From Paracoccaceae bacterium (GTDB lineage Bacteria > Pseudomonadota > Alphaproteobacteria > Rhodobacterales > Rhodobacteraceae), in contig PWWF01000039.1 in assembly GCA_003561595.1 (NCBI GenBank), positions 1-29,112 of the forward strand: a stretch of DNA of 29,112 nucleotides, in the 5' to 3' direction. The position numbers were made by a program, and so were the translations under genes. Position 1 is the first letter of the stretch, and every line of letters starts with the position of its first letter. Under the pieces are notes generated by a model, which saw only the letters and a program-made list of their open reading frames with translations, had not been told where the DNA came from and ran no database searches. Of the stretch, positions 1-22,682 are shown piece after piece.

Positions 1-342
1 CCCCAGATTGCCGTGGCTCTGGTCCGCAATGTGCATCGACCCGCCCTTGCCCCGGCAATAGCCCTCGGCCTTGCCCAGAAGCTCGCAGAACATCTCCTTG
101 AACTCGGCCCCCTTGGCCACGCAATGCCCGTGCCCGCGATGGGTCGAGGTGATGCGGTCGTCATCGGTCAGCGCCTCGCAGATGCCGACCGCAACCGCTT
201 CCTCGCCCGAATACATATGCGTAAGCCCCGGCATCTTGGCCGAGAGATAAAGCTGGTTCGCGTTATCCTCGAAGGTGCGGATGCGCACCATCTGGGCATA
301 CATCCGCAGGTATTCTTCGGTGTTCGACTTGGCCTTGGCCAT
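1..342 (-). CDS. TPP-dependent dehydrogenase E1 component, alpha subunit (N-terminal part)
   Basis: The first 114 residues of the alpha subunit of a thiamine-pyrophosphate 2-oxo acid or acetoin dehydrogenase E1 are present; the rest lies beyond position 1. The family decarboxylates a 2-oxo acid or acetoin and passes the acyl group to a lipoyl E2. The run MYAQMVRIRTFED, the MYSGEEAVAVG segment, STHRGHGHCVAKG and the RGKGGSMHIAD segment are hallmarks of the E1 alpha fold. The ATG at 342 is preceded by GAGAGGA. It is the fourth gene of a minus-strand run (regulator, SDR, M24 hydrolase, E1 alpha), 84 bases after the M24 gene. Beta and E2 subunits would be expected further on, outside the window. 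Pyruvate, acetoin or branched-chain specificity cannot be told from this part. Confidence 0.9.
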   Translation of the reverse strand, partial: MAKAKSNTEEYLRMYAQMVRIRTFEDNANQLYLSAKMPGLTHMYSGEEAVAVGICEALTDDDRITSTHRGHGHCVAKGAEFKEMFCELLGKAEGYCRGKGGSMHIADQSHGNLG

Positions 343-426: not shown

Positions 427-1725
427 TCAATAGCGGTTCGCGATTGGCAGGTCTTCGGCGGGGAAGAGGCTGATCACCTCGCAGCCGGTCTCCGTGACGA
501 CGACCTCTTCCTCGATCCGCGCCGCCGAATAGCCGTCGGTCGCGGGGCAATAGGTTTCCAGCGCGAAGACCATGCCGGTCTTGATCTCCATCGGATGCTC
601 CAGACTGACGGCGCGGCTGATGATCGGCCGCTCATGCAGCGCCAGCCCCAGACCGTGGCCGAACTGCAGCCCGAAAGCCGCATCCTCGTTCGGGAAGCCC
701 AGCGACTCGGCGGTCGGCCAGACTTCGGCGACCTTGTCGGTGGTCACGCCGGGTTTGATCATCGCGATGGAGGCGTCGATCCATTCGCGCGCCTTGACAT
801 AGGCGTCGTTCTGCGACGGCGTCGCGCGGCCCACGTTGAAGGTCCGGTAGTAGCAGGTCCGGTACCCCTGATAGCTTTGCAGGATGTCAAAGAAACACTG
901 GTCGCCCGGCCGGATCAGCCGGTCGGTGAAGTTGTGCGGATGCGGGTTGCAGCGCTCGCCGGAAATGGCGTTGATCGCCTCCACATCATCGCTGCCCATC
1001 TCGTAGAGCATCTTGTTCGACAGCGCGACGATATCGTTCTCGCGAACCCCCGGTTTCAGTTCTTCCCAGATCATGTGGTAGACGCCATCGACCATGCTGG
1101 CCGCCTGGGTCAGAAGCTGGATCTCGTCCCAGTTCTTGATTTCGCGCGCCGCCAGCATGATCTGCTGGCCATCGACGACCTTGACCCCTTCTTCCTGCAG
1201 CGCATGGAACATGGCGGTTTCGGCATAGTCCACGCCCACCGGCATATCGGCCATGCCCGCATCCTTGATCAACTGCGCGATCATCTTGGCGTATTTGCGC
1301 ATCAGGCCGAACTCCGGCGGGATGGTGCCGCGCATCCCCACCACACCGGCGAGGCAATGATCCGGCTCCAGCCAGTCCGAATAGCGCTGGTGGTGCACGG
1401 CGGCCGAGCCGAAATCCCAGACATAAGGACTGTCATCCCCCGTCAGCAGGCAGAAGCGGCACATCTTGTCGCGCTCCCACTCGCCGATCTTGGTGGCGGT
1501 GACGTAGCGGATGTTGTTCACATCAAAGAGCAACAGCGACCCGGCGTTCGAGTTCTGCAGCGACTGGCGTGTGCGCGCCAGCCGGTAGCGCCGCAGCCGA
1601 TCATGGTCGACCCGGCGCTCGAAATCGACGGAAGTGTGGCCCCAGGCGGGCAGGCGGTCGCGCCATTCCCAGTTTGGGTCCAGATCCTGCGGGGTCAGCA
1701 GGTTGGGCATCAAGGCTCGTGACAT
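427..1725 (-). CDS. M24-family (creatinase/Xaa-Pro peptidase-like) hydrolase with an altered metal site
   Basis: A 432-residue protein with an N-terminal creatinase-type domain (about 40-195) and a C-terminal pita-bread domain (about 200-425). The family includes prolidases, creatinase and the DMSP lyase DddP. In the five-ligand M24 site I can place Asp280, His357 (in FGHGLG), Glu390 (in FALETY) and Glu405 (in ARIEEEV). The position expected to be the second Asp, just before the RTF run at 294-296, is Cys291 instead. A normal two-metal peptidase is therefore doubtful, and a metal-free or one-metal hydrolase or lyase is possible. I chose the ATG at 1725 because GGAG lies 8 bases upstream; an in-frame ATG at 1755 lacks this. 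It lies between the SDR gene (72-base gap) and the E1 alpha gene. The substrate is unknown, and a DddP-like lyase activity should not be assumed. Confidence 0.85.
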   Translation of the reverse strand: MSRALMPNLLTPQDLDPNWEWRDRLPAWGHTSVDFERRVDHDRLRRYRLARTRQSLQNSNAGSLLLFDVNNIRYVTATKIGEWERDKMCRFCLLTGDDSPYVWDFGSAAVHHQRYSDWLEPDHCLAGVVGMRGTIPPEFGLMRKYAKMIAQLIKDAGMADMPVGVDYAETAMFHALQEEGVKVVDGQQIMLAAREIKNWDEIQLLTQAASMVDGVYHMIWEELKPGVRENDIVALSNKMLYEMGSDDVEAINAISGERCNPHPHNFTDRLIRPGDQCFFDILQSYQGYRTCYYRTFNVGRATPSQNDAYVKAREWIDASIAMIKPGVTTDKVAEVWPTAESLGFPNEDAAFGLQFGHGLGLALHERPIISRAVSLEHPMEIKTGMVFALETYCPATDGYSAARIEEEVVVTETGCEVISLFPAEDLPIANRY

Positions 1726-1797
1726 GGAAAAGCTCCGTTGGATGCGTGGCTGCACGCACCGCTTGTCTGAAGTTGCGGGGGGAACAGGCGCGGCGCG

Positions 1798-2604
1798 CTA
1801 CTGGATGCCCCAGCCGCCATCGATATGGATCATCTGACCCGTCATGTAGTCGCTGTCGGCACTGGCGAGGAACGCGGCGGTGCCCTTCACGTCATCGGGG
1901 TAGGACACGCGCTTGATCTGCAACGCGTCGCGGACGATGTCGTCATAGGCTTGGCCCTCGCGTTCCTTGAAGCCGATATCGACCAAGTCCTTGTCAAGCT
2001 GCTCCCAGAGCGGCGTGACCACCACACCCGGGGCATAGCCGTTCACCGTGATCCCATGCTCGGCCAGCCCCACAGCGCCGCAATGGGTCAGCGCCAGACA
2101 GCCGTATTTCGACGTGCAATAGACCGTCACATCCACCAGCGGCTTGCGCGAGGCAATCGAGCCCACATTGATCAGCTTGTAGGGGTAGTCCTGCTTGCCC
2201 TGGGCGATCATCTGGCGCGCGGTCTCCTGCATGCCCAGCCACATCGCCTTGGTGTTGACGTTCATGATCATGTCCCAGTTGTCTTCATCGATATCCATGA
2301 AGAACCGGGGCTTGTTGAGACCTGCATTGAACAGACCCACATTGATCATGCCGAACGCCTCGACCGTGGCGGCGACGGCTGCGGCGTTGTCTTCGCGCTT
2401 GGTGACGTCCATCTTGACCGCAATCGCCTTGCCGTTGCCCCTGCCGTTGATCTTGTCGGCCATGTCCTGCGCGGCATCGAGGTCGAGGTCGCCCAAGCAG
2501 ACATTCGCGCCCAGTTCGGCGAAATGCTCGGCATTGCAGGCCCCCATCCCGCGTCCCGCGCCGGTGATCAGAATGTTCTTGCCCTTCAGGCGTTTGGTGT
2601 CCAT
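1798..2604 (-). CDS. Short-chain dehydrogenase/reductase (SDR)
   Basis: A 268-residue classical SDR, probably a cytosolic NAD-dependent alcohol or polyol dehydrogenase. Visible motifs in order are TGAGRGMG (residues 14-21, cofactor loop), Asp39 at the end of the second beta strand (favours NAD over NADP), FNAG (92-95), Ser149, and Tyr162-x3-Lys166 in YCTSK (catalytic). The end, MIHIDGGWGIQ, is typical of the family. The ATG at 2604 has a very good AAGGAGG just upstream, and the gene begins 22 bases after the regulator stop, so the two are almost surely co-transcribed. Substrate specificity cannot be read from the sequence. Its neighbours suggest it oxidises the imported compound or an intermediate before the TPP dehydrogenase step; this is inference. 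Confidence 0.93.
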   Translation of the reverse strand: MDTKRLKGKNILITGAGRGMGACNAEHFAELGANVCLGDLDLDAAQDMADKINGRGNGKAIAVKMDVTKREDNAAAVAATVEAFGMINVGLFNAGLNKPRFFMDIDEDNWDMIMNVNTKAMWLGMQETARQMIAQGKQDYPYKLINVGSIASRKPLVDVTVYCTSKYGCLALTHCGAVGLAEHGITVNGYAPGVVVTPLWEQLDKDLVDIGFKEREGQAYDDIVRDALQIKRVSYPDDVKGTAAFLASADSDYMTGQMIHIDGGWGIQ

Positions 2605-2626: not shown

Positions 2627-4438
2627 TTATTTCAGGGCGCGCTCAGCCCTTTTCTGGGCGCTCCTGAGTGCGTCGCGGGGGCTTTGGACCCCGCGCAGCA
2701 TGTCGTGGATTTCCTGCCCGCAGATCTCGAATATCTCGGAGATCTGGGGGATGGGCGGGCGCGGCCAGTATTGCAGCTCGTCGCGCAATGACATGGCGTC
2801 GACCGCCTCGAAGATGGGTGAAATACGGCGTACTTCGGTGTCGGCGCCGACCGAATAACGGGGCGCCGTGCGGCTGCCGTTCAGCACATAGAGCTTCTGC
2901 GCCTCGGGCGAGGTGAAGGCGATCAGCGCCTCGGCCGCTGCCGCGCGGCGCTCGGGCGCCAGATTGGCGGGAATGCCCAGAACGTAGCCGCCGACCGGGG
3001 CCAGTGGCGTGCCCTGCGGCCCTGCCGGATGGGGCAGATATCCGGTTCTGCCATGGGCGGGCGAGTCCGGATCGCGCTCGAAATACGGGGCGAGCAGCGT
3101 GTAGCCATAGGCCATCGCGATCTTGCCCGAGGCAAAGGGGCGCACGCGCTCATACCAGGACATCGACAGGATATCGGGCGGCGAATAGTCCAGCAGTTGC
3201 AGCAGGTAGTCGCAGGCATCGCGCGCAAGCGGCGTGTCGATGGTCGGCACGATGTCACTGCGGCTGGCCGTGTCGGCGTCGAACCCGCCCGCAATGGCGT
3301 CGAGGTTCAGGATCGGCTGGCCGAAATCGGCGCAGGTCATCAGGAACTGATGCCCGAGCGCCGTGCCGCGCGCCGCGTTCCAGGCGATGCCGTAGCGTCC
3401 GCGCTGCGGATCGTGGAAATGGCGCGCCGCGGCGATCAGCTTGTCCGTGGTCTCGGGCAGGTCCAGCCCGGCCTCGGCAAACAGGTCCTTGCGGTAGAAC
3501 AACAACTCCGGCGTGGTCTGGCTGGGCACACCATAGGGTCGCCCGCCCCAATGCGCCGCCATCCAGCCCGCGGTGTGAAAATCGGCGGGATCAAGCCGGT
3601 CGGTGTCAAGGCAGGCATCGAGCGGCAGCAGCACGCCCTTTTCGGCGAATTCGCCGATCCAGGGCAGGTCGACGGCGATGATGTCATACTTGCTGACCCG
3701 GCGATCGGCGTTGCGCAGCGCCTCGTTGCGCAGCCGGTCGATGGAAAAGGCGCGCTGGCTTATGTTGGTGCCGATGATCTGCTCGAACTGGCGTTTGAGG
3801 TTCTCCATCACCATGAAGGTCGGATCGCCATGCACCAGCACCCGCACGCCGCCGGCGACCTGCAGCGGTTCGGACAGCACTTGCGGGGGCGCGATGGACT
3901 GGCTGGCCGGAAGGTAGGAAGCCCCGTAATAGTAGTCCCCCTCGGCCTGGGTGGCGGTGCCGGTGGTTTCCACGCTCAGGCGCATGATTCGGTCGGCGAA
4001 CTGGCGCCAGTTCGCCATCAGCCGGTCGGTCGGATGCAGCGAAAAGGACCGGCCCGAACGGGTGCGAACCCGCTGTTCGATCAGCCCGCAATCCAGCATC
4101 CTGTGCAGTTTGCGGCGCGCGGTTGCGTAGGGCACCCCCGACGCGCTGATCAGCATCGTGGCGGTCACGACCTTGCCGTCCAGATGCGCGCGCAGCAACG
4201 CCATGACCATGTTGAGGTATGGATTGGGCTCGGCGATCTCCAGCGCCATGTCGAGTTCAGCCTCGACCCCTTCCAGAAACGCAAGGGCGGCCGACAGGGC
4301 AGACCTCTCTTCCGACGCGCCGAGCATTGCACGGGCGGGTACGGGGGAGATATCTCCATTCTGAACGTTTGCCATCTGCACGCGTTGCGTCTTTCCTGTG
4401 CGCCCGGGCATCGCTGCCCCTTTCGTCGACTTGACCAT
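2627..4438 (-). CDS. Fusion regulator: winged-helix DNA-binding domain plus ABC solute-binding-protein domain
   Basis: A 603-residue protein with two unlike parts. Residues about 73-145 look like a MarR/GntR-like winged helix (GVPYATARRKLHRMLDCGLI followed by a wing RVRTRSGRSFSL). Residues about 195-590 are a family-1 extracellular solute-binding fold: YDIIAVDLPWIGEF, LLPLD, YGVPSQTTPELLFYRKDLF, FASGKIAMAYGY and a late VGGYVLGIPAN. There is no signal peptide or membrane segment at the N-terminus, so the binding domain should sit in the cytoplasm and serve as a ligand sensor. The ATG at 4438 follows AGGAGAG. The gene heads the minus-strand run and is divergent from the CUT2 importer; the DNA between them carries TGTCCA-type inverted repeats that are its probable operators. 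The sensor domain is of the maltose/CUT1 kind, whereas the neighbouring importer uses a ribose-type binding protein. Confidence 0.88.
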   Translation of the reverse strand: MVKSTKGAAMPGRTGKTQRVQMANVQNGDISPVPARAMLGASEERSALSAALAFLEGVEAELDMALEIAEPNPYLNMVMALLRAHLDGKVVTATMLISASGVPYATARRKLHRMLDCGLIEQRVRTRSGRSFSLHPTDRLMANWRQFADRIMRLSVETTGTATQAEGDYYYGASYLPASQSIAPPQVLSEPLQVAGGVRVLVHGDPTFMVMENLKRQFEQIIGTNISQRAFSIDRLRNEALRNADRRVSKYDIIAVDLPWIGEFAEKGVLLPLDACLDTDRLDPADFHTAGWMAAHWGGRPYGVPSQTTPELLFYRKDLFAEAGLDLPETTDKLIAAARHFHDPQRGRYGIAWNAARGTALGHQFLMTCADFGQPILNLDAIAGGFDADTASRSDIVPTIDTPLARDACDYLLQLLDYSPPDILSMSWYERVRPFASGKIAMAYGYTLLAPYFERDPDSPAHGRTGYLPHPAGPQGTPLAPVGGYVLGIPANLAPERRAAAAEALIAFTSPEAQKLYVLNGSRTAPRYSVGADTEVRRISPIFEAVDAMSLRDELQYWPRPPIPQISEIFEICGQEIHDMLRGVQSPRDALRSAQKRAERALK

Positions 4439-4454: not shown

Positions 4455-4469
4455 TGTCCAAAACTGACA
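4455..4469. promoter_or_regulatory. Operator-like inverted repeat, site 1
   Basis: TGTCCA-AAA-CTGACA, an imperfect copy of the site at 4489-4503, centred 34 bases from it. It lies 17 bases upstream of the fusion regulator's ATG, next to its ribosome binding site. Probable autoregulatory operator; inferred from sequence symmetry only. Confidence 0.55.
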
Positions 4470-4488: not shown

Positions 4489-4503
4489 TGTCCAAAATGG
4501 ACA
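4489..4503. promoter_or_regulatory. Operator-like perfect inverted repeat, site 2
   Basis: TGTCCA-AAA-TGGACA, with perfect 6-base arms around a 3-base spacer. It lies in the divergent promoter region between the fusion regulator and the CUT2 importer. It is the best-formed of the related sites here, so I take it as the core operator. Confidence 0.65.
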
Positions 4504-4509
4504 TTGTAT

Positions 4510-4524
4510 TATTCGTTTTGGACA
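4510..4524. promoter_or_regulatory. Operator-like site 3 (one good half)
   Basis: The right part, TTTTGGACA, matches the site 2 consensus exactly; the left half is degenerate (12 of 15 bases agree overall with the reverse-strand consensus). Its centre is 21 bases, two helical turns, from the centre of site 2, so proteins bound at both would be on the same DNA face. Confidence 0.45.
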
Positions 4525-5697: not shown

Positions 5698-6672
5698 ATG
5701 CTGTTGACCCGCCTCAAGGCCGGGGGCCCTGCAATTGCCAAGCAGGGCATCCTCATTGCCTTCATCGTCTTCATGATCGTGTTCGCGCTGATGTCGGACC
5801 GGTTCCTGACGACCGCGAACATCATGTCCGTCTTCCGGCAGGCGACGATCATCGGTGTCATCGCGCTTGGGGTGACCATTGTCGTGATCGGTGGCAATCT
5901 GGACCTGTCGGTGGGATCGATGCTGTCCTTTGCGACCGTGCTGGTGGTCGATCTGCACGACAAGATCGGCCCGGAACTGGCGATTCCCGTCATGGTCGCG
6001 GCAACGCTGTGCTTGGGCGCGATCAACGGGTTCCTGATCGGCATATTGCGACTTAATTCGCTGATCGTGACGCTGGGGATGCTCTCGGCCATCCAGGGGC
6101 TGGTGCTGATCTACAGCGGCGGGCAGAATGTCGATATTGCGGATCAGAGCGGCACGTGGTTCGCCATCTTCGGGCGCGGAGCGATCTTCGGCATCGCCAC
6201 ACCGATCATCATCTTCCTTGGGCTCGCGCTGATCTTTCATGTCATCATGACCACCATGCCATTCGGGCGGCGGGTCCATGCAGTCGGGGGCAACCCCACA
6301 GCTTCGGTCTTTTCCGGCATCCCGCGGTCGCGGATCGTGTTCATGACCTATCTTATCTCGGCGCTTTGCGTGGCGGTTGCGGCGATCATCCTGGGCAGCC
6401 GCGTCATGGGCTCTCAGAACAATGTGGGTCAGGGATATGAGCTTCAGGTACTGGCGGCGGTGATCCTGGGCGGCACGTCCCTGCTTGGCGGCTCCGGCAG
6501 CATCCTGCGCACCGTGCTGGGCGTGCTGATGCTGGCCTTCATCCAGAACGGTCTGATCCTGATGGGGCAGCCCTACTACACGCAATGGCTGGTCACCTGG
6601 GCGGTCATCATCATCGCGGTCTGGCTCGACGTGGCTGCCAAGCGCGGTCGCCTGTTCTCGCCCATAGCATGA
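5698..6672 (+). CDS. CUT2 ABC importer, permease 1
   Basis: A 324-residue inner-membrane permease of the RbsC family with about eight to ten hydrophobic segments. Family marks are the ALGVTIVVIGGNLDLSVGSM block, the GAINGFLIG segment, GRRVHAVGGNPTASVFSGI (cytoplasmic loop that meets the ATPase) and VILGGTSLLGGSGSI near the end. The ATG at 5698 has GGGAGGAG 4 bases upstream. It pairs with a second permease gene immediately downstream, so the channel is probably a heterodimer. A few bases separate it from that gene, with possible translational coupling. Confidence 0.93.
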   Translation: MLLTRLKAGGPAIAKQGILIAFIVFMIVFALMSDRFLTTANIMSVFRQATIIGVIALGVTIVVIGGNLDLSVGSMLSFATVLVVDLHDKIGPELAIPVMVAATLCLGAINGFLIGILRLNSLIVTLGMLSAIQGLVLIYSGGQNVDIADQSGTWFAIFGRGAIFGIATPIIIFLGLALIFHVIMTTMPFGRRVHAVGGNPTASVFSGIPRSRIVFMTYLISALCVAVAAIILGSRVMGSQNNVGQGYELQVLAAVILGGTSLLGGSGSILRTVLGVLMLAFIQNGLILMGQPYYTQWLVTWAVIIIAVWLDVAAKRGRLFSPIA

Positions 6673-6680
6673 GGCCCGTC

Positions 6681-7670
6681 ATGGCAAACCTTACTCAAAT
6701 CCCGCTGGTGCGCTGGCTGATGCGCAATCCGATCTGGGGCTTCGTGCTGATCGTCTTCATCTTCTTCAGCTTCGCGGCGGATAACTTCTTTTCGGGCCAA
6801 AACGTGATGAACATCTTGGTGCAGACCTCGACCATCGGGCTGATCGCGCTGGGCATGACGCTGGTGATGATCAACGGCAACATCGACCTGTCGGTGGGGG
6901 CGACCCTGGCGCTGGCCGCGGCCTTTGCGGTCGATGTCCAAAGCTGGGCGATGTTTGCGACATGGGGCAACTGGCAGATCCTGCCTGCGGTCTGCATCGC
7001 CCTGCTGGTGGGCATATTGATGGGGGCGATCAACGGCTTCATTGTCTGGAAGACCGGGGTCGATGCCTTCATCGTCACCCTGGGCGCGATGCTGGGCATT
7101 CGCGGGCTGGTCTTCGTCTACACCGGCGAGCAGTCCTTCTACGCGATGAACTTCGCCTATTCCGACTTCAGCTTCCTGACCATCGGCCCGTTCCCGGTGC
7201 TCGCCGTGATCTTCGCGGTGGCCGTGATCGCCGTGCATCTGCTGCTGTCGCGCACGGTCCACGGGCGGAACACCTACGCCGTCGGCGGCAACCGCGAGGC
7301 GGCGGTGAACGCAGGCATCCGGGTCGGTCCGCACATGATGGTCAACTTCATGCTGATCGGCTTTCTGGCCGCGCTGTCGGGCGTGCTGCTGTCAACGCAG
7401 ATGGGCGCGGCAACGCCCAATCTGGGCCGCGACTACGAGCTTTGGGTCATCACCGCGGTCGTCCTCGGCGGCACCAAGCTGACGGGCGGCAAGGGCGATA
7501 TCATCGGCACGCTGGGCGGGGTGCTGGCCATCGGTATCCTGCGCAACGGGATGAACCTGATGCAGGTGCCCGCCTTCTATGTCCTTGTCATCCTCGGCAG
7601 CATCCTGATCGCGGTCCTGTTCCTCGACAAACGCTTCAACCGCCCCGCTGACGGAGGGCTGCGCCTATGA
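6681..7670 (+). CDS. CUT2 ABC importer, permease 2
   Basis: A 329-residue RbsC-family permease, clearly related to the previous one: ALGMTLVMINGNIDLSVGAT, GAINGFIVWKTGVDAFIVTLG, NTYAVGGNREAAVNAGI and VVLGGTKLTGGKGDIIGTL. I chose the ATG at 6681 because GAGG lies 6 bases upstream. An ATG at 6669 overlapping the previous stop as ATGA is also in frame and would add four residues. Its own stop overlaps the ATPase start as ATGA at 7667-7670, showing translational coupling. It partners permease 1 in the inner membrane. Confidence 0.92.
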   Translation: MANLTQIPLVRWLMRNPIWGFVLIVFIFFSFAADNFFSGQNVMNILVQTSTIGLIALGMTLVMINGNIDLSVGATLALAAAFAVDVQSWAMFATWGNWQILPAVCIALLVGILMGAINGFIVWKTGVDAFIVTLGAMLGIRGLVFVYTGEQSFYAMNFAYSDFSFLTIGPFPVLAVIFAVAVIAVHLLLSRTVHGRNTYAVGGNREAAVNAGIRVGPHMMVNFMLIGFLAALSGVLLSTQMGAATPNLGRDYELWVITAVVLGGTKLTGGKGDIIGTLGGVLAIGILRNGMNLMQVPAFYVLVILGSILIAVLFLDKRFNRPADGGLRL

Positions 7671-9181
7671 GTGATGCACGCGAACCCGCCCTGCGCCTGA
7701 AGGGCATCGTCAAGACCTTCCCCGGCGTGCGCGCCCTGGACGGCGTGGATTTCGAGGTGATGCCGGGCGAGGTCCACGCCCTGCTGGGCGAGAACGGCGC
7801 CGGCAAGTCCACGCTGATGAAGGTGCTGGCCGGCATGTACCAGCCGAACGAGGGGCAGATCATCATCGGCGGCAAGCCCGTGCAGATGACCAACCCGATC
7901 GAGGCCAAGTCCCAAGGCGTGGTGCTGATCCACCAGGAACTGAGCCTTGTCCCCGAAATGTCGGCGGCCGAGAACATCTATCTGGGTGAATTGCCGCGCA
8001 AGTCCTTCGGGCGGGTGGACTGGAAGACGCTGGAAGAGCGCTCGAACGCCATCCTCAAGCGGCTGAAATGCAGGTTCCGGGCCGAAGCGACGGTGGCGCA
8101 GCTTTCCATCGCCAACCAGCAGATGGTCGAGATCGCACGTGCCCTGACCGTCGATGCGCGGGTCGTGGTGTTCGACGAGCCGACCGCCTCGCTCACCGAT
8201 GCCGAAAAGGTGGTGCTGTTCGATATCATCAACGACCTGAAATCGCAGGGCGTGGGCATTGTCTACATCTCGCACCGCATGGATGAAATCTTCACCCTGT
8301 CGGACCGGATCACCGTGCTGCGGGACGGGGCCTATCGGGGGACCTTGACCACCGCCGAGACGAACGAGGACGAGGTCACGCGCCTGATGATCGGGCGCAG
8401 CCTTGATCTGTCGCGCAACGAGGCGGCGCCGAATTTCGGTGAAACCATGCTCGAGGTGCGGGGCCTCACCTGCGCGGGCTTGTTCGAGGATGTCAGCTTC
8501 ACCGTGCGCACCGGTGAAATCGTGGGCTTCTACGGGCTGGTCGGCGCGGGCCGGACCGAAATCGCCGAAACGCTGTTCGGCCTGCGGACCCCGACCTCGG
8601 GTGAAATCTGGGTCGACGGCCAGAAGGTCGAAATCACCTCGCCCCGCGATGCGATTGCGCTGGGTGTGTCGCTGGTGCCGGAAAACCGCAAGGAACAGGG
8701 ACTGGTGCTGCAGATGAACTGTCGCGACAACATGACCCTGCCGCAGGTGCAGGACCTGACCGCCGGGCCGTTTGTCGCGAAAGGTTCCGAGATCGCGATT
8801 TTCGACCAGTATCGGGACAAGCTGGCCATCAAGACCCCAAGCTGGCGCCAACCCACCGCCGTGCTCTCGGGCGGCAATCAGCAGAAGATCGTGATCGGCA
8901 AGTGGCTGTCGATGCAGCCCCGCGTCCTGATCGTCGATGAGCCGACCCGCGGAATCGACGTGGGTTCGAAATCCGAGATACACAATCTGCTGCGCGAACT
9001 GGCGGGGCAGGGCTATGCGGTGATCGTGATCAGCTCCGAAATGCCCGAGGTGCTGCGCGTGTCGGACCGGATCGTGGCCATGTATCACGGAAAGATCATG
9101 CGCGAGTTCACCATTGATGACGTGACCGAGGATTCGCTGGTGCAGGCGATCTCGGGGATCGCCGCGGCAGAGCCCGCCTGA
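7667..9181 (+). CDS. CUT2 ABC importer, tandem ATP-binding protein
   Basis: A 504-residue RbsA/MglA-type ATPase with two nucleotide-binding domains in one chain. Domain 1 has a full Walker A, GENGAGKST (residues 41-49), an unusual signature stretch LSIANQQ, and Walker B VVFDEPTASLTD. Domain 2 has a degenerate Walker A without Lys (GLVGAGRTE), a good LSGGNQQK signature and Walker B LIVDEPTRGID. This division, with only one fully competent Walker A, is normal for the family. The start overlaps the permease 2 stop. It is the last gene of the importer operon; the next gene is convergent after 47 bases. Confidence 0.95.
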   Translation: MSDAREPALRLKGIVKTFPGVRALDGVDFEVMPGEVHALLGENGAGKSTLMKVLAGMYQPNEGQIIIGGKPVQMTNPIEAKSQGVVLIHQELSLVPEMSAAENIYLGELPRKSFGRVDWKTLEERSNAILKRLKCRFRAEATVAQLSIANQQMVEIARALTVDARVVVFDEPTASLTDAEKVVLFDIINDLKSQGVGIVYISHRMDEIFTLSDRITVLRDGAYRGTLTTAETNEDEVTRLMIGRSLDLSRNEAAPNFGETMLEVRGLTCAGLFEDVSFTVRTGEIVGFYGLVGAGRTEIAETLFGLRTPTSGEIWVDGQKVEITSPRDAIALGVSLVPENRKEQGLVLQMNCRDNMTLPQVQDLTAGPFVAKGSEIAIFDQYRDKLAIKTPSWRQPTAVLSGGNQQKIVIGKWLSMQPRVLIVDEPTRGIDVGSKSEIHNLLRELAGQGYAVIVISSEMPEVLRVSDRIVAMYHGKIMREFTIDDVTEDSLVQAISGIAAAEPA

Positions 9182-9228: not shown

Positions 9229-11760
9229 TCAGTCCGGATTATCGCCAAAGGCCAGATTGCTGCGGGCGACCTGACCCGCGGGGCTGTCGGGGTTGCGGGC
9301 ATGGGGCGGGGTCAGCGCCACGAATTCCTGCCAAAGCGGCCCGGCGCGCAGGTCGTTGCGTGTGCGCATCCCCTGCCAGCGCGCATAGAGCGCACCGGCG
9401 CCCGGCATGGTGCGCTGCGCCCCCGTCAGGCGCGACAGATGGGGGTCGTCCTCGGCCGGCATCGCGTCCAGAAGATCGGCATAGAGCCGGTCCCGCGCCG
9501 CGCCGGTCAGGAAACTGGCAGTCCCGGCGATCACCGCGCGATGGGTGCGCGGAGCAAGGTATTCGATCAGCGGGCGGTCGTCGGTGTTGATCGGCGCATC
9601 GGCAAACAGCCCCGACGCCGCGTTGCCCGCGTAGAATTTCAGCGCCCGGTCGATCAGAACATTGTCGGGCGCCTCGTCCCCCGTCATCACCCGCCATTGC
9701 GCCGCCAGCGTCCCGGGATCCAGCGGTGCGGCCTCATTGCGCCCCACCAGCGCCAGGATCGAGCGCTCGGGGTAAAGGTCCCCGCGCCAGAACGTCAGTT
9801 CGGGGAAGACCTGCGCCATGGTGTTGGCGATGATCTCGAACTCGGGGCGCGAGACCTGATAGAGCGGCATCCACTGCACATAAGTGCCGCCCTTGTTCAG
9901 CCGGGACGCGGCAAGGCGGTAATGTTCAAGCGTATAGACATTGCCCACCCCCGCGCGCCAGGGCGTGAACAGATCGGCGATGATCATGTCATAGGTGGCG
10001 CGGGACCGGGCCAGACACTGCCGCCCGTCCTCGCGGTGGATGGTCACGCGCGGGTCGGTGAAGAGGCCGTTTGTGTAGGGCTCGAACCAGTCGCGTGCGA
10101 AATCAACCACATCGGGCAGCAATTCGCAGACCGCCACCCGCTCGGGGTTTGCGAACAGCCCTGCCCCGGCGGAAATCCCGGTCCCCATGCCCAGGAAAAA
10201 GACCTCGCGCGGGTCCGGGTGGGTCAGCAGCGGGATCATGGTCTGGTTACGCTCGGGCACCAGCGCGCCGGACCCGCCCAGCGTGTAGAAATTGTTGACG
10301 CGGATGAATTTTGCGCCCCGGCGCTCGACCACGGCGACATGGGCCGAGGCGCCCTCGCGGAAGTCCAGCAATTCCTCGCCCGCGTTCAGCCGCGTAGGCT
10401 CCAGCCCCGGACGGCCCGCCATCAGCGCCACCGCCCCCGCCAGCGCGGCCAGGCGCAGGGACTGTGCCGCCAGGCGCTCATCCGGTCGCCAAAGCGCAAG
10501 CACCAGCACGGCATAGACCGCCGCCATCAGCCACAAACCCTGCCACATGCCGACCAGCGGCAGCAGCACGAAGCCCCCCGCCAGCGCGCCAAGGATCGCG
10601 CCCGTCGTGTTGACCGCGATCAACCGCCCCAGCACCGCGCCGGGCGCCCCGCCCCCCTCCATCAGCCGCAACAGGTAGGGCAGAACCGCCCCCAGGATGG
10701 TTCCGGGGATCAGCATGGTCAGCGCCGCCACGCGCCCGACCTCGGCCACATACCCCGCGAACTCGGCCCGCCCGCCCAGATAGCCCAGGCCTCGGGTCAG
10801 GTGGTGGAACAGATGCGGCGTGGCAGTGATCATGAGGGCCGAGGCCACCAGGAGCCCGGTCAGCACCGCCTCGGGGCGCGCGCGCAGCCTGTTCAGCGCA
10901 TTGGCCAGCGCCGCACCCAGCGACAGCGCCGCCAGGAACACGGTCAGCACCAGCGCGTAGGTGTAGACCGAGTTTTGCAGGACCTGGGCGAAAGCGCGGG
11001 TCCAGATCACCTCGACCGCCAGCGTGGCAAAGCCCGAGGCGAAGGCGATGCCCCAGAGCCGCGCGGGAATGGCGACATGCGCGACCGTCGCCTGCGCGAC
11101 CCGCGGCAGGGCGCGCCGCGCCAGCAGCAGCGCCGCAGCGCCCACGAACAGGTCGAACCCCACCGCCAGCAGATAGGCGCCCGAGAACCCCAGCCAAATC
11201 GGCAGGAAGAACCCCGCCGCCATCGCGCCCATCGCGCCCCCGGCAGTGTTGAGTGCATAAAGCGCCGCGCCCATGCGGCCCAGCGCATCGCGCGCGCGGA
11301 TGACGTGCTGGCCCATCAGCGGCAGCGTCCCGCCCATGAGGATCGCCGAGGGCAGCAGGATCGTCGCGGCCACGGTCGCTTTCAGCGCGGTTTCCAGCAC
11401 GGGATTGCCGCCGACCAGCGCGAAGAGCGCCGGGTATAGGCGAAAGTAGACATCAGCGACCAGGAAATGCCCCAGCGCGGTCGCCGCCACCCCGATCTCG
11501 ACCAGCCCGAAGGCGCGCAGGGGCCGCGCCAGCCGTGCCGCCAGCCGGCCGAACAGCCAGCCCCCCAGTGCGATGCCAGCAAAGAAGATGGCGATGGTCA
11601 GCGCCGCCGCCTGCGCGGTGGAGCCGAACAAGAGCCCCAACTCGCGTACCCAGAGCACCTGATAGATCAGCGCCGCGGCCCCGGAAAGCGTGAACAGCGC
11701 GCCGAGGACGGGTGTTTCGAAACGCGCCGACGCAGCGCTTTGGGCATGGGCAAGGCTCAT
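9229..11760 (-). CDS. Fused multi-pass membrane protein / spermidine-synthase-like protein
   Basis: An 843-residue protein. Residues about 15-450 hold a dozen or more hydrophobic segments in two related halves (for example AALIYQVLWVRELGLLFGST near residue 30 and TLAVEVIWTRAFAQVLQNS near 250), a family-typical internal duplication. Residues about 460-750 resemble polyamine synthases: an S-adenosylmethionine-type loop VFFLGMGTGISAG (520-532), acidic Glu546 in VAVCELLPDV, then EDGRQCL and IIADLFTPW. Databases usually name this architecture fused MFS/spermidine synthase; whether it makes polyamines is unproven. A further stretch of about 90 residues at the C-terminus is not assigned. The ATG at 11760 has no clear Shine-Dalgarno. 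It appears monocistronic. Confidence 0.85.
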   Translation of the reverse strand: MSLAHAQSAASARFETPVLGALFTLSGAAALIYQVLWVRELGLLFGSTAQAAALTIAIFFAGIALGGWLFGRLAARLARPLRAFGLVEIGVAATALGHFLVADVYFRLYPALFALVGGNPVLETALKATVAATILLPSAILMGGTLPLMGQHVIRARDALGRMGAALYALNTAGGAMGAMAAGFFLPIWLGFSGAYLLAVGFDLFVGAAALLLARRALPRVAQATVAHVAIPARLWGIAFASGFATLAVEVIWTRAFAQVLQNSVYTYALVLTVFLAALSLGAALANALNRLRARPEAVLTGLLVASALMITATPHLFHHLTRGLGYLGGRAEFAGYVAEVGRVAALTMLIPGTILGAVLPYLLRLMEGGGAPGAVLGRLIAVNTTGAILGALAGGFVLLPLVGMWQGLWLMAAVYAVLVLALWRPDERLAAQSLRLAALAGAVALMAGRPGLEPTRLNAGEELLDFREGASAHVAVVERRGAKFIRVNNFYTLGGSGALVPERNQTMIPLLTHPDPREVFFLGMGTGISAGAGLFANPERVAVCELLPDVVDFARDWFEPYTNGLFTDPRVTIHREDGRQCLARSRATYDMIIADLFTPWRAGVGNVYTLEHYRLAASRLNKGGTYVQWMPLYQVSRPEFEIIANTMAQVFPELTFWRGDLYPERSILALVGRNEAAPLDPGTLAAQWRVMTGDEAPDNVLIDRALKFYAGNAASGLFADAPINTDDRPLIEYLAPRTHRAVIAGTASFLTGAARDRLYADLLDAMPAEDDPHLSRLTGAQRTMPGAGALYARWQGMRTRNDLRAGPLWQEFVALTPPHARNPDSPAGQVARSNLAFGDNPD

Positions 11761-13533: not shown

Positions 13534-14949
13534 ATGCGCAAGACATTCATCGGTCCGCATCTGCGGCGCCTGCGCCGCGAGCGTGGCCAGACCCAGGCCG
13601 ACATGGCGCGCGCGCTGGGCATCAGCCCGGCTTATGTGAACCTGCTCGAGAACAACCAGCGCAGCGTCTCGGTCTCGATCCTGTTGCGGCTCCTGGAAAC
13701 CTATGGCGTGGACTGGCGCGACATCGCCGAGGATGACACCGGCGCGCGGCTGGCCGACCTGCGCGGGATGCTGCAGGATCCGATCTTCGACAACGCCCGC
13801 CCGGACCTGCAGGAGCTGCGCGCCGCCCTGGCCCATGCGCCGCGCCTGCTGACCGCGCTTTCGCAATTGCACCGCGCCTATCTGGCGGTAACCGACCAGC
13901 TTCAGGCGGTGGCCCTGCGCACCGGCGAGGGCGAGCCGCTGCTGGGCACCTCGCCCGAGGCGGCGGTGCACGACTTCTTCCGCCGCCATCGCAACCATTT
14001 CCCCGGTCTGGAAAAGGCCGCCGAAGCGTTCTGGGACGGCAAGCCGCCTGCCACCGACGATGTCTATGCCGCGCTCAAGGACCGTCTGGCCCGGCGCCAC
14101 CGGATCGCCGTGCGGCTGGCCCCGGTCTCCGAGATGCCCCGTACCCTGCGCCACCATGACGAAACCCGCGGCGAGGTGCTGCTGTCCGAGGCGCTGGACC
14201 ACCCCAACCGTGTGTTTCAGCTTGTCCATGTGCTGGGGCTGATCGAATGCAGCGATGCGCTGGACAAGCTGCTGGAGGGTGTGCCCGCGGACAGCCCGCA
14301 GGGGCGCGCGCGCTGCCGGGTTGAGCTGGCAAACTATTTCGCCGCCGCGCTCCTGATGCCCTATGATGCGTTTCTGACCGCGGCGCAGGCCAGCAAATAC
14401 GATTTCGACCATCTGGCCACACGCTTCGGCGTCAGTTTCGAACAGGCCTGCCACCGCGCCACCACACTGCAACGCAACGGGGCGCAGGGGGTGCCGATGT
14501 TCTTCCTGCGCATCGACAAGGCCGGGAACGTCACCAAGCGGTTCAACGCCACCGATTTCCAGTTGGCAGAATACGGTGGTGCCTGCCCGCGGCTGGACGT
14601 GCACATGAGTTTCCGCACCCCGGGCCGGATCATCCCGCAACTGGTCGAGATGCCGGACGCCTCGCGCTATTTTGTCTTCGCCCGCACCGTGGACCGGCCG
14701 CAGTTCGAACGCCACGGGCAGGACAATCGGCTGGCCGTGGCCATGGGCTGCACCATCGATAACGCCTCGGAAATCGGCTACGCCGAAGGGGTGGCGCTGG
14801 GGGATGCCCGGGTCACGCCCATCGGGATCAACTGCCGCATCTGCCCGCGCGCGGGCTGCGAACAGCGCGCCCATCACGCCCCCGCGCTGACCGCGCCCGT
14901 GGACGAACGCCGCCGCGGTGCCACGCGCTACGATTCGGTTCAGGGCTGA
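13534..14949 (+). CDS. RamB/ScfR-type transcriptional regulator (XRE HTH plus IrrE-like domain)
   Basis: A 471-residue regulator. Residues about 8-62 form an XRE helix-turn-helix (LRRLRRERGQTQADMARALG, then SPAYVNLLENNQRSVS). Residues about 180-300 resemble an IrrE/ImmA domain, but the zinc motif HExxH is degenerate (LVHVLGLIE, His232), so peptidase activity is unlikely. A C-terminal domain ends in a conserved CRICPRAGC cluster (Cys434, 437 and 442). This layout is that of the RamB/ScfR family, which controls acetate, propionate and short-chain acyl metabolism in actinobacteria and alphaproteobacteria. The ATG has GGGAGGGG upstream. It is divergent from a glyoxylate aminotransferase and probably controls it and itself through the palindrome at 13460-13480. 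The acyl-CoA-like effector is unknown. Confidence 0.88.
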   Translation: MRKTFIGPHLRRLRRERGQTQADMARALGISPAYVNLLENNQRSVSVSILLRLLETYGVDWRDIAEDDTGARLADLRGMLQDPIFDNARPDLQELRAALAHAPRLLTALSQLHRAYLAVTDQLQAVALRTGEGEPLLGTSPEAAVHDFFRRHRNHFPGLEKAAEAFWDGKPPATDDVYAALKDRLARRHRIAVRLAPVSEMPRTLRHHDETRGEVLLSEALDHPNRVFQLVHVLGLIECSDALDKLLEGVPADSPQGRARCRVELANYFAAALLMPYDAFLTAAQASKYDFDHLATRFGVSFEQACHRATTLQRNGAQGVPMFFLRIDKAGNVTKRFNATDFQLAEYGGACPRLDVHMSFRTPGRIIPQLVEMPDASRYFVFARTVDRPQFERHGQDNRLAVAMGCTIDNASEIGYAEGVALGDARVTPIGINCRICPRAGCEQRAHHAPALTAPVDERRRGATRYDSVQG

Positions 14950-15204: not shown

Positions 15205-16788
15205 TCAGCCCAGCTCGGGCGGCAGCAGGGCGCGCAGGTGTTCCAGCCGGTCGGCCTCGGCGGCGGGTTTGTCGGTGCGGATGCGGGCGATTCGCGGGAA
15301 CCGCATTGCCACGCCCGACTTGTGTCGGGTGGAGCGGTTCAACCCCTCGAAGGCGATTTCCAGCACCAGTTGCGGGGCCACCGCGCGGACCGGGCCGAAC
15401 CGATCGGTGGTGTGATCGCGCACGAAGCGGTCCAGGTCGCGCAATTCGGCGTCGGTGAAGCCGAAATACGCCTTGCCCACCGGCACCAGCGCGTCCCCGT
15501 CCCAAAGCCCGAAGGTGAAGTCCGAATAATACCCCGACCGCTTGCCGTGGCCGCGCTGGGCATACATCAGCACCGCGTCCACCACCATGGGATCGCGCTT
15601 CCACTTGAACCAGTGCCCCTTGACCCGTCCGGCCAGATACGGGCTGGCGCGGCGCTTGATCATCACCCCTTCGATCACGGGGTCCGGGGGCGCGGCGCGC
15701 AGGGCGGCGAGCGCCTCCCATGTGTCGAAGGACAGCAGAGCCGAGAGGTCGATGCGCGGGTCATCAAGTGCGCGCACCGCATCCTCCAGCGCCGCGCGGC
15801 GGATCGCGAACGGCTCCGCCCGCAGGTCGCGGCCCTGCCACAGCAGCAGGTCATAGGCGCGGAGCGCCGCCGGAAGCCGCGCCATCATCGGGCCCGAGAC
15901 GCGCTTGCGGTTCAGCCGTTTCTGAAGCTCCGAGAACGGCGCCACCCGGTCGCCCGTGCGGATCAGCAACTCGCCGTCGATCACGCCGTCGAAGACCAGC
16001 CGCTCCAGCAGGTCGGGGAAGGTGGCGCTGATGTCCTGCCCGGTGCGGGTGTAAAGCCGCTGCACACCGCCTTCGGCCACCGCCTGCACCCGCACCCCGT
16101 CCCATTTCCATTCGGCGGCAAAATCGGCGGGGTCCAGCGTTCCGGGGTCCAGATCGTCGAAGCCGGTGGCCAGCATGACGGGCCGCAGGCTGGCGAGAGC
16201 GGGTTCCGGGCGCGGTCCGCCGTCCGCCCACTGGAACAGCGCCGTGTAGGGCGGGGCCATGCCGTGCCAAAGCTCCTCGACCTCGGCCACGTCCACGCCG
16301 ATGAATTCGGCCAGCGTCACGCGGGCCAGACGGCCCGAGACGCCGACCCGCAGCCCGCCGGTCGCGAGTTTCAGATAGGCGTAGCGCTCGGACATGCCCA
16401 GCGCGTCCAGCCGCCCGGCCACCATCGCGGGCAGATCGGCGCGGCCTGCGCGCTGCAACTCGGTGATCAGGGCCGAGAGCGGCGGCGCGTCGGGCGCGCG
16501 AACAGTGTCTGGGGCGCCATCCGGCCAGGCCAGGGCGATGGTCTCGGCCAGATCACCGACATAGTCATAGGAGAGCGCAAACAGTTCCGGGTCCATCCGC
16601 TCCGAGATCAGCGTGCGCAGAAGCGACGGCGTGACCTGCCGCAATTCCAGGTCGCCGGTCAGCGCGGCCAGCGCATAGCCCCGGTCCGGGTCCGGCGTGG
16701 TGGCGAAATAGCGCAGAAACTGCGCCTGTTTCACGCTGCGCCGCGGCGTGAAGGCGAGCGCTTCCAGCAGGCGGGCGAAGCGGCGCAT
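15205..16788 (-). CDS. ATP-dependent DNA ligase (LigB/LigC-like, exonuclease-associated family)
   Basis: A 527-residue ligase: an N-terminal helical DNA-binding domain (about 1-200), an adenylation domain (about 200-410) and an OB-fold (about 415-527). Motif I is EWKWDGVR with Lys228 as the AMP-accepting residue. Other nucleotidyltransferase motifs are TRTGQDIS, VIDGELL, EGVMIKRRASPY and HWFKWKRD. It seals nicks with ATP, probably in DNA repair rather than replication. It follows an MBL-fold exonuclease gene with a one-base overlap (TGATG), so the two are translated together. This pairing is a known bacterial ligase-associated repair set. The ATG at 16788 is used; a GTG at 16791 is also possible. 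There is no Ku or LigD polymerase domain. Confidence 0.93.
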   Translation of the reverse strand: MRRFARLLEALAFTPRRSVKQAQFLRYFATTPDPDRGYALAALTGDLELRQVTPSLLRTLISERMDPELFALSYDYVGDLAETIALAWPDGAPDTVRAPDAPPLSALITELQRAGRADLPAMVAGRLDALGMSERYAYLKLATGGLRVGVSGRLARVTLAEFIGVDVAEVEELWHGMAPPYTALFQWADGGPRPEPALASLRPVMLATGFDDLDPGTLDPADFAAEWKWDGVRVQAVAEGGVQRLYTRTGQDISATFPDLLERLVFDGVIDGELLIRTGDRVAPFSELQKRLNRKRVSGPMMARLPAALRAYDLLLWQGRDLRAEPFAIRRAALEDAVRALDDPRIDLSALLSFDTWEALAALRAAPPDPVIEGVMIKRRASPYLAGRVKGHWFKWKRDPMVVDAVLMYAQRGHGKRSGYYSDFTFGLWDGDALVPVGKAYFGFTDAELRDLDRFVRDHTTDRFGPVRAVAPQLVLEIAFEGLNRSTRHKSGVAMRFPRIARIRTDKPAAEADRLEHLRALLPPELG

Positions 16789-17795
16789 CACTCGGGCTCA
16801 TCTTCGTAGCCGACCATGTTGAGCGCCCGCGCGCGGTGGCCGTTCAGAGTGCACCAACGCAGGAGCGCTTCCTCGCGGCCATGGGTGATCCAGGTCTCCG
16901 CAGGCGCCAGTTCGGCGATGGTGGCGGTCAGTTGCGGCCAGTCCACATGGTCTGAGATCACCAGCGGCAGTTCCACGCCGCGTTGCCGCGCCCGCGCGCG
17001 CACCTGCATCCACCCGCTGGCGAACCCGATCACCGGGTCGGGGAAGCGCTGCACCCAGGGGCTGGCAAAGGCTGACGGGGGCGCGATGACGATAGCGCCA
17101 GAAAATTGCGCCTTGTTCCCGCGTTCGATGGTGGCGGCGCGCAACTCGCCCAGGTCGATCCCCTGGTCGACATGATAGTCGCAGAGCCGCCGCAGCGCGC
17201 CATGGACATACACCGGCCCGTCCCAGCCCGCCGCGCGCAAGAGCGTGATGACCCGCTGCGCCTTGCCCAGCGCATAGGCGCCGATCAGATGCGCGCGGTC
17301 GGGGAAGGTGCGGCGCGAGTCCAGCAGCCGCGCGATTTCGACGTCCGGGTCCGGGTGGCGAAAGACTGGCAGCGCAAAGGTCGCCTCGGTCACCAGCACG
17401 TCGGCGGGCACCGGCTCCCACGGCGCGCAGGCGGCGCTGGGGGTGCGGGTATAGTCGCCGGTGACCACGAAGACGCCGCCCGGGGTTTCGATCCTGATCT
17501 GCGCCGAGCCCAGCACGTGACCTGCGGGGTGGAAGCTGACAGTCGCCGCGCCGATCCGCATGGGGGCGTCCGCGACCTGGGTGTGATCCGCGAAATCCGC
17601 GCCGTAGCGCATCGCCATGATGTCCAGCGTCTGGCGTGTGGCCAGCACATGCATGTGCCCGGCGCGGGCGTGATCGGCGTGGCCATGGGTGATCAGCGCC
17701 CGATGCACCGGGCGCACCGGGTCGACGAAGAAATCGCCGCCGGGGCAGTAGAGCCCCTCGGGGCGCGGGTGAAGAAAGGCATCGAAACCGGGCAT
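16788..17795 (-). CDS. Ligase-associated MBL-fold DNA exonuclease
   Basis: A 335-residue metallo-beta-lactamase/beta-CASP-like nuclease. The metal motif HGHADH is at residues 37-42, with later metal residues in FHPAGHVLGSAQI, VVTGDYTRTP and the beta-CASP-like segment IGAYALGKAQRV; late motifs are SDHVDW and TWITHGREEA. The family, named for its constant link to the adjacent ligase, is related to the SNM1/Artemis group and is thought to trim DNA ends before sealing. The ATG at 17795 gives the usual family length; the open frame continues upstream without family similarity. The Shine-Dalgarno is weak. The helicase (Lhr-type) and phosphoesterase genes that often complete this set are not beside it. 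Confidence 0.9.
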   Translation of the reverse strand: MPGFDAFLHPRPEGLYCPGGDFFVDPVRPVHRALITHGHADHARAGHMHVLATRQTLDIMAMRYGADFADHTQVADAPMRIGAATVSFHPAGHVLGSAQIRIETPGGVFVVTGDYTRTPSAACAPWEPVPADVLVTEATFALPVFRHPDPDVEIARLLDSRRTFPDRAHLIGAYALGKAQRVITLLRAAGWDGPVYVHGALRRLCDYHVDQGIDLGELRAATIERGNKAQFSGAIVIAPPSAFASPWVQRFPDPVIGFASGWMQVRARARQRGVELPLVISDHVDWPQLTATIAELAPAETWITHGREEALLRWCTLNGHRARALNMVGYEDEPE

Positions 17796-17942
17796 CGGCG
17801 TGCGTGGGTTGAAAGCTCGAGAATGGCGCGCGTCCACCTGCAACCTAACGCGCCGACACGCGATTCCAACGCGTGTGTGCCCAGCGTATCCCAAGGCAAC
17901 CGGCCTCCGGTGGGTTCGATGCGCCATCGCCCGTTTCTCCCC

Positions 17943-17962
17943 GCCCGACGCTTGCGTCGGGC
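17943..17962. repeat. Perfect hairpin in the promoter region of the exonuclease gene
   Basis: GCCCGACGC, TT, GCGTCGGGC: perfect 9-base arms. It lies 148 bases upstream of the exonuclease ATG and just before the nested repeat at 18000-18059. The shape is like that of REP-type extragenic palindromes. Confidence 0.55.
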
Positions 17963-17985
17963 AGCGCCCGCGAAGCGCCACGGGA

Positions 17986-18059
17986 GGGTGGGTGGGGGCG
18001 CTGAGCGGGCGCACTTTCTACGGGAAACGTGCGTCGCAGCGCAGCGGTCGACGCTCAGC
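17986..18059. repeat. Repeat-like element, copy B, with nested inverted repeats
   Basis: Outer arms GCTGAGCG (18000-18007) and CGCTCAGC (18052-18059) enclose a hairpin at 18009-18034: GCGCAC-TTTC, a 5-base loop, GAAA, a bulged C, then GTGCGT. It also carries the GGGTGGGTGGG, GGGCGC and ACGGGAA blocks shared with 15046-15099. It lies 2 bases beyond the lytic transglycosylase stop and may act as its transcript end. Confidence 0.5.
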
Positions 18060-19884: not shown

Positions 19885-21201
19885 ATGACCATGAACATGA
19901 CGTCATCGATGAACGCCGGGATCGCCGGGTTGCAGTCCAACGCAACGCGGATGGCCGGTATCTCGGACAATATCGCCAACGCCAGCACCCATGGCTACCG
20001 CCGGGTGCACACCAGCTTTCACGCCATGGTGCTCGGGGATACAGTCGCGAATCGCGGCACCTACGCAGCGGGTGGCGTGCGCACCAGCACCATGCGGATG
20101 GTGGATCAGGGCGGGCAGATCACCGGCACGCAGAACGCCACCGATCTGGCCGTGAACGGGCGCGGCTTCCTGCCCGTGACCTCGCTGACCGGCGCGCGCA
20201 ACGGGGGGGAGGCGATGCCACTGATGCTGACGCCCACCGGGTCCTTCCGCTTCGATGCCGATGGCTTTCTGCGCAGCGATGCGGACCTCGTGCTGCTGGG
20301 TTGGCCGGCGAACGCCGACGGCACGGTTCCGGCCTTTGCCCGCAACAGCAATGACGGGTTGGTGCCGGTCCGCCTGGACGACATGCAGCTTGCGCCGCAA
20401 CCGACCGGGACAATCTCGCTCGGGCTGAACCTGCCCGCCAGCGCAACCCTGCCCGATGCACCGGGCACGCCCAGCGATCTTTCGCTCGATTACATCGACA
20501 CCCTCGGCCTCAGCCGCAACCTCGACATCAGTTTCGTGCCCACCGTCACGCCGGGGACGCACAGCAACGCCTGGACCATGCAGGTGGAGGATCCGGCCAC
20601 CGGCACGGCGCTGGGGGCCTGGGCGCTTCAGTTCGGCAGCGGCGTTGCCGATGGCGGCCGGTTGACCAGTGTCACCGAACTGCCCGGAAGCGACGCCTAT
20701 GATCCCGCGACCGGCACCGTCGGGATCACCATCGATGGTCAGGACATTGCGATCGAGATCGGCGCCCTTCTAGACCGGCAGGGCATCACCCAGACCGCCG
20801 GCGCGTTCCAGCCCCATCGCATCGCGCAGGACGGGTTCGGCGCGGGCGAGGTGCTGGGCGTTTCCGTCACTGAAGAGGGCATGGTGCAGGCCGTCTATGA
20901 TCAGGGCACCGTGCGGACGCTCTATCAGGTCCCGCTGGTCGATGTGCCCAATCCCAACGGTCTGGAATCGCTTAGCAATCAGGCGTATCGCGTGTCCGCC
21001 GAAAGCGGCGCCTTCCTGCTGTGGAACGCGGGCGAAGGCCCCACCGGCACGGTGATGGGCAACGCGCTGCAGCAATCGGCCACCGACATCGCTGCGGAAC
21101 TGACCGGGCTGATCCAGACCCAGCGCGCGTATTCCTCGAACGCCAAGCTGATCCAGACCGTGGACGAGATGCTGCAGGAAACCACCAATATCAAGCGCTG
21201 A
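19885..21201 (+). CDS. flgE: Flagellar hook protein FlgE
   Basis: A 438-residue hook protein, exported by the flagellar type III system with no cleaved signal. The N-terminal rod/hook motif is clear (GIAGLQSNATRMAGISDNIANASTHGYRR, residues about 12-40), as is the DLAVNGRGFLPV block that opens the D1 region. The C-terminal motif, IQTQRAYSSNAKLIQTVDEM, packs with the N-terminal helix in the hook core. Length is normal for alphaproteobacteria. The ATG follows AGGAA by 7 bases. The next gene, flgK, starts 40 bases after the stop, so flgE-flgK-flgL-flgI are probably one operon. Confidence 0.95.
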   Translation: MTMNMTSSMNAGIAGLQSNATRMAGISDNIANASTHGYRRVHTSFHAMVLGDTVANRGTYAAGGVRTSTMRMVDQGGQITGTQNATDLAVNGRGFLPVTSLTGARNGGEAMPLMLTPTGSFRFDADGFLRSDADLVLLGWPANADGTVPAFARNSNDGLVPVRLDDMQLAPQPTGTISLGLNLPASATLPDAPGTPSDLSLDYIDTLGLSRNLDISFVPTVTPGTHSNAWTMQVEDPATGTALGAWALQFGSGVADGGRLTSVTELPGSDAYDPATGTVGITIDGQDIAIEIGALLDRQGITQTAGAFQPHRIAQDGFGAGEVLGVSVTEEGMVQAVYDQGTVRTLYQVPLVDVPNPNGLESLSNQAYRVSAESGAFLLWNAGEGPTGTVMGNALQQSATDIAAELTGLIQTQRAYSSNAKLIQTVDEMLQETTNIKR

Positions 21202-21241
21202 ACGCTGCGCAACGCGCTGACGCACCCAGGGAGACATGGCC

Positions 21242-22678: not shown

Positions 22679-22682
22679 TGCC

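Follow-up and report, generated by a model that had tools for sequence, protein, structure and literature searches.

A MarR-like winged helix joined to a full-size CUT1-type binding-protein domain: a predicted one-component regulator with a conserved candidate operator

What does a full-size, maltose-type binding-protein domain do behind a predicted DNA-binding head, in a gene that faces a ribose-type (CUT2) importer? LacI/RbsR-type proteins, which have the type I, ribose-like fold, are the usual regulators of CUT2 importers; the sensor of the protein considered here, REG, is not of that type. The window (the whole stretch of DNA analysed, 29,112 nucleotides) comes from a Paracoccaceae bacterium. 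A sequence-only reading of it had proposed that the 603-residue REG joins a DNA-binding domain to a complete family-1 binding-protein fold and acts as a one-component regulator. REG and its parts are placed as follows.

2627..4438, minus strand: REG, regulator, 603 aa
4241..4318, minus strand: predicted long helix ahead of the winged helix, residues 41-66 (structure prediction)
3962..4222, minus strand: MarR-like winged helix, residues 73-159 (predicted structure and fold matches)
4091..4129, minus strand: putative recognition helix, residues 104-116 (predicted)
3848..3961, minus strand: linker, residues 160-197, with a conserved DYYFG.SY stretch
2633..3847, minus strand: CUT1-type solute-binding sensor domain, residues 198-602 (Pfam and predicted fold)

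Structure prediction recovers both halves of the proposed protein, a winged helix at 73-159 and a solute-binding domain at 198-602. SBP_bac_1 matches residues 250-515 (Pfam, E 8.5e-29) at 101.9 bits against a gathering score of 26, which places the domain in the CUT1 sequence family, and SBP_bac_1 and SBP_bac_8 are the only SBP-type Pfam matches of REG; the winged-helix matches in the N-terminus of the window's REG all fall below the Pfam cut-off. When 11 diverse members were compared with helix-turn-helix families, MarR_2 was matched in seven (E ≤ 0.01) and HTH_IclR in four (best E 2e-8). The AlphaFold2 model (mean pLDDT 82.7, pTM 0.69) was built on a 117-sequence alignment, comprising 109 of 120 listed REG proteins and 8 from a search with residues 45-190. 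It has a head of helices 73-86, 93-99 and 104-116, wing strands 120-124 and 132-136 and a helix 138-159, and, after it, a complete binding-protein fold (198-602). In this full-length model pLDDT is 52-66 for the final helix of the head; modelled by itself (57 sequences) the head has the same structure at pLDDT 87.5. The 50 best solved-structure matches of the head are mostly MarR-type regulators, with weak E-values (best 1.0e-3). One structural match reaches a middling Z of 9.2 but with an rmsd of 10.1 over 113 residues, and 2rdp gives Z 8.2 with an rmsd of 2.3 over 84 residues. P103, Y104, T106 and R109 of the head are invariant in all 117 aligned sequences. The modelled helix 41-66 is possibly a dimer helix. 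The C-terminal fold is closest to 5iai (TM-score 0.89 by target length), then to 1eu8 and others, and the solved close relatives of the sensor are named sugar, trehalose/maltose and sorbitol binders.

REG is a single gene. The possibility that a sequencing frameshift had fused two genes is ruled out by the alignment and by uniform length, since 119 of the 120 listed proteins (query included) are 550-634 aa long; the remaining one has 528 aa. All 120 carry the identical two SBP matches. A search with residues 45-190 alone returned 70 proteins, 69 of them with SBP matches; it admits only proteins of 0.55-1.75 times the query length, so that lone heads could not show up in it.

The search for proteins with the same domain order, suggested at the outset, yielded relatives and their gene neighbours. 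Those spanning head and sensor, at 27-49% identity, come from Skermanella, Shinella, Agrobacterium, Rhizobium, Sinorhizobium, Loktanella, Aminobacter and Paraburkholderia. Where public records name family members, the names are 'extracellular solute-binding protein', 'multiple sugar transport system substrate-binding protein' or similar, or hypothetical; no entry with a shown name says regulator, and most entries are nameless. REG is a family with patchy spread rather than a single curiosity. Within the host's family, a REG-type head occurs in 24 of 149 genomes and a close M24 enzyme in 23 (both in 21, REG alone in 3, M24 alone in 2; cut-offs E ≤ 1e-8 for the REG N-terminus and E ≤ 1e-120 for M24, same genome but not always same contig). 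Strong matches with REG-length open frames were found in 3 of 142 genomes of the class (G000, G117, G030; G028, with an open frame of 589 at L098, is outside this count) and in 4 of 299 genomes of the phylum (G000, G534, G196, G418). Most weaker profile matches in the class and phylum sit in shorter proteins, and Response_reg plus MarR-type matches were present in four of the six checked (L097, L101, L104, L106). The N-terminal profile also picks up receiver-domain response regulators from other genomes of the class, through their MarR-like C-terminus.

Three REGs compared with one another are 28-42% identical over 545-565 residues, their whole length, and are far closer to each other than to the CUT1 binding proteins that adjoin two of them. 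Because of this full-length resemblance, the sequences suggest an old fusion, presumably of single origin, rather than repeated copying. The earlier statement that the sensor had not been copied from the gene next door also holds, since the neighbouring binding protein is ribose-type and the three REGs are closest to each other.

The genes around REG form two divergent groups, one of them cut by the end of the contig.

1798..2604, minus strand: SDR oxidoreductase, directly downstream of REG
427..1755, minus strand: M24 (creatinase/DddP-like) enzyme
1..342, minus strand: PDH-like E1 alpha, N-terminal part, cut by contig end
4648..5589, plus strand: ribose-type (CUT2) solute-binding protein of the divergent importer
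5698..6672, plus strand: CUT2 permease 1
6585..7670, plus strand: CUT2 permease 2 (mechanical ORF; the real start probably lies inside it)
7667..9181, plus strand: CUT2 ATPase, two ABC domains

This layout, REG-SDR-M24-E1/E2-ALDH facing a CUT2 importer, is conserved. Of 80 loci (L004-L083), taken from named genomes of Rhodobacterales, Stappiaceae and their relatives, all have REG, 79 have the SDR, 78 the importer binding protein, 76 M24 and 72 the permeases and ATPase, the missing genes being due in part to contig ends. A search with Phaeobacter plasmid genes placed E1 alpha, E1 beta, a lipoyl protein, an aldehyde dehydrogenase and E2 after M24 in 55 of the 61 loci that extend at least 6 kb beyond it. 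One of the remaining six is without E2 only and five have none of the E1-E2 genes there; four of these five carry two SDR-like genes instead. The window's E1 alpha fragment shares 90% identity with its Phaeobacter counterpart across 114 residues. The NCBIfam matches listed for five downstream genes are to PDH-like E1/E2 and a succinate-semialdehyde-like dehydrogenase, all but one below cut-offs; the ThuA gene had no match. An identity of the M24 enzyme as DddP (DMSP lyase) was rejected, the DddP model scoring 120 bits against a cut-off of 600. The operon of SDR, M24, PDH-like E1/E2 and aldehyde dehydrogenase would be a catabolic pathway; neither the NCBIfam matches of the downstream genes nor the open-licence literature searched gave an answer as to its substrate. 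The adjacent permeases are BPD_transp_2, the CUT2 type, and no CUT1 permease was found among the 21 window ORFs scanned. Nor was another regulator found among the annotated Phaeobacter cluster genes or the cluster genes of the window, which is the range of this negative; the 80-locus survey sought named cluster genes.

Beyond the cluster the window encodes an 843-aa fused MFS/spermidine-synthase-type protein (9229-11760, minus; NCBIfam NF037959), a RamB/ScfR-like regulator of ordinary type with HTH, IrrE-like and ScfRs domains (13534-14949, plus), an ATP-dependent DNA ligase adjoining a protein with a weak beta-lactamase-fold match (15205-18014, minus) and a flagellar block with FlgE-type, FlgK, flagellin-like and FlgI genes (19885-24805, plus).

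The region between REG and the importer contains a three-site candidate operator. Two of its sites are 15-bp palindromes TRTYCAWWWTGRAYA spaced by 21 bp; the third, a weaker one, lies 34 bp further on.

4510..4524, no strand: operator site 1, 11/12 on the consensus
4489..4503, no strand: operator site 2, perfect palindrome TGTCCAAAATGGACA, 12/12, 21 bp from site 1
4455..4469, no strand: operator site 3, 10/12, 34 bp from site 2, shortly before the REG start

The best TRTYCANNNTGRAYA pair at 21-bp spacing scores 19-24 of 24 in 78/78 intergenic regions and averages 22.1; dinucleotide shuffles (n=234) average 14.5 and never exceed 18. The 78 regions come from the 80 loci, L057 and L073 being left out as their importer-REG region is not on the contig. 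Across them the site spacing has maxima at 21, 34 and 55 and a minor one at 43. The remaining sequence of these 80 loci, which total 1.52 Mb, has five pairs at 19 and one at 23; the latter, the only pair of at least 20, lies upstream of REG in L073, whose importer is off the contig. A lone 12/12 match to the half-pattern at 24243-24257, in the flgI-like ORF, has no partner at 21 bp and is probably due to chance.

Since the consensus derives from these 78 regions themselves, many of which are related to one another, further regions were scored. Out of sample was defined as having no exact 100-base match to the 78 defining regions; of 44 upstream regions, four that were among those 78 and one duplicate (L108 = L129) were set aside, which left 17 clade orthologues and 22 divergent family members. 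A pair of at least 19 is present in 16/17 of the former and 0/22 of the latter (Fisher p 4.5e-10, relatedness not corrected). In the 17th clade member, L138, two sites of 11/12 stand 22 bp apart. The top out-of-sample score, 24 of 24, belongs to L109, from a genome of another class of the phylum, in which relatives of the importer, SDR and M24 are also present (L110). In the divergent members, a broader single palindrome, chosen after seeing the sequences, matches 10/10 in 4/22 (0.05 expected) and at least 9 in 6/22 (1.3 expected), with no full match in 18/22.

We propose that REG is a cytosolic one-component regulator which acts on the three-site operator and switches the CUT2 importer and the catabolic operon through a ligand-sensing flytrap, a reading in which we place high confidence. 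The domain order, the predicted folds, the conserved cluster and the conservation of the operator with the REG clade are computational observations; from them we infer that REG itself binds the operator, dimerises and senses in the cytosol. The one-component claim of the sequence-only reading thus gains support from the structure prediction and from the clade-conserved operator beside the gene. The MarR-like winged helix would bind the operator, probably as one dimer per 15-bp palindrome. The CUT1-type domain would sense the imported compound or an early product by flytrap closure, and ligand-driven closure would alter the DNA binding of REG. The importer operon and the catabolic operon (REG-SDR-M24-E1/E2-ALDH) would then be switched together, perhaps with REG repressing its own expression until ligand lifts the repression. 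That the ligand is polyol- or sugar-like is a guess.

REG might activate the importer operon rather than repress it, with the same sensor and the same operator; this is a possible reading, though not the one we favour. In the 78 regions the site pair sits 116-221 bp ahead of the importer start, from where activation would be possible. Read by eye in the direction of REG, however, the sites flank a conserved TA-containing stretch, which may be the -10 of REG, and the third falls in the leader just before the start codon, a repressor-like layout. Autorepression is for this reason somewhat more likely than activation.

It is unlikely, in our judgement, that the paired palindromes belong to an unlinked regulator and that REG, as a cytosolic binding protein whose HTH has degenerated, serves another purpose. 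What ties the operator to REG is position and co-conservation only, the divergent REGs lack the pair, and L124, from another REG subfamily, has no pair despite adjoining an M24 gene. Against such a separation, the evidence can be summarised as (i) the invariance of the recognition-helix residues in 117 sequences; (ii) the absence of a further regulator among the annotated Phaeobacter cluster genes; (iii) the operator pair accompanying the REG clade into another class (L109); (iv) two loci with M24 and E1 relatives and no REG match (L114, L144) in which no pair exceeds 18, a control of n=2 that is imperfect in L144, where just 1 kb before M24 is available.

The N-terminus of the window's REG is not hydrophobic (0.86) and mean hydropathy exceeds 1.6 in the first 60 residues of 0/117 REG sequences, in a signal test that discriminates poorly, as it gives the window's own exported-type binding protein just 1.26. 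That REG is a normal exported solute-binding protein whose N-terminus carries an unusual extension, as the public names, the complete CUT1 domain and the weakness of this test would allow, is very improbable given the predicted winged helix with its invariant residues, the non-hydrophobic N-terminus, a cluster that owns a CUT2 binding protein and BPD_transp_2 permeases, and the absence of a CUT1 permease from the 21 window ORFs scanned.

Several known systems share parts of the plan of REG. LysR-type regulators combine a winged helix with a type II binding-protein-like sensor of smaller fold; the REG sensor, in contrast, has the roughly 400 residues of a full-size CUT1 domain. LysR HTH and substrate domains were found neither in the whole of REG (Pfam, E ≤ 0.001) nor in its N-terminus at E ≤ 10, a scan whose filters drop most matches above about 0.1. 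The MarR family resembles the N-terminal domain in predicted fold, at weak E-values; MarR proteins are not known to have a binding-protein domain, whereas the REG head is fused to one. GntR heads fused to SBP_bac_1 may occur in Firmicutes. The CUT1 binding proteins Arad_9887 (5iai) and TMBP (1eu8) resemble the C-terminal part in whole fold and in sequence, but they are importer components, and the REG domain is instead fused to a DNA-binding-type head. SgrR, which autoregulates, and its Vibrio homologue DsvR have, like REG, an N-terminal HTH and a C-terminal solute-binding domain, but the latter is SBP_bac_5 rather than SBP_bac_1 and the gene context differs (PMC13060122). Neither SgrR_N nor SBP_bac_5 was found in REG, SgrR_N being absent from the Pfam matches of its N-terminal 191 residues in the same E ≤ 10 scan. 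Since SgrR/DsvR and LysR share the HTH-plus-binding-protein plan, a regulator with a type II binding-protein sensor is an already known kind of device, and the suggestion of a little-described class stands only for the particular, unnamed combination of head and CUT1 sensor. For this combination we found no named NCBIfam model and, among the matches listed for narrow terms in the open-licence literature, no description, which hints weakly that none exists.

The divergent relatives have other surroundings. CUT2-type importer genes lie near five divergent REGs (L085-L088, L091) and CUT1-annotated importers near two (L087, L092); just the edge of a permease is in view in L089 and L090, and just a binding protein in L093. 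Five of the eight annotated divergent loci (L085, L088, L089, L090, L092) have an intradiol dioxygenase, four of these five with a maleylacetate reductase. Several of the five also have sugar importers or Gfo/Idh/MocA oxidoreductases. A sugar or cyclitol route to a hydroxyquinol-type ring in these loci is speculation.

Taken as a family, REG probably represents an unnamed group of regulators of Alphaproteobacteria and Burkholderiales, with a MarR-like head, a full-size maltose-binding-protein-type sensor and a subfamily-specific cluster and operator, hidden in databases as extracellular solute-binding protein. If this is true, the large sugar-binding fold of importers has also been turned into a cytosolic transcription sensor, and such a regulator gains a specific, testable operator. 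Where such a head precedes what is annotated as an exported binding protein, the gene would then probably encode a regulator. The operator and the conserved cluster make the metabolite directly searchable, and the REG architecture would be a natural starting point for sugar biosensors.
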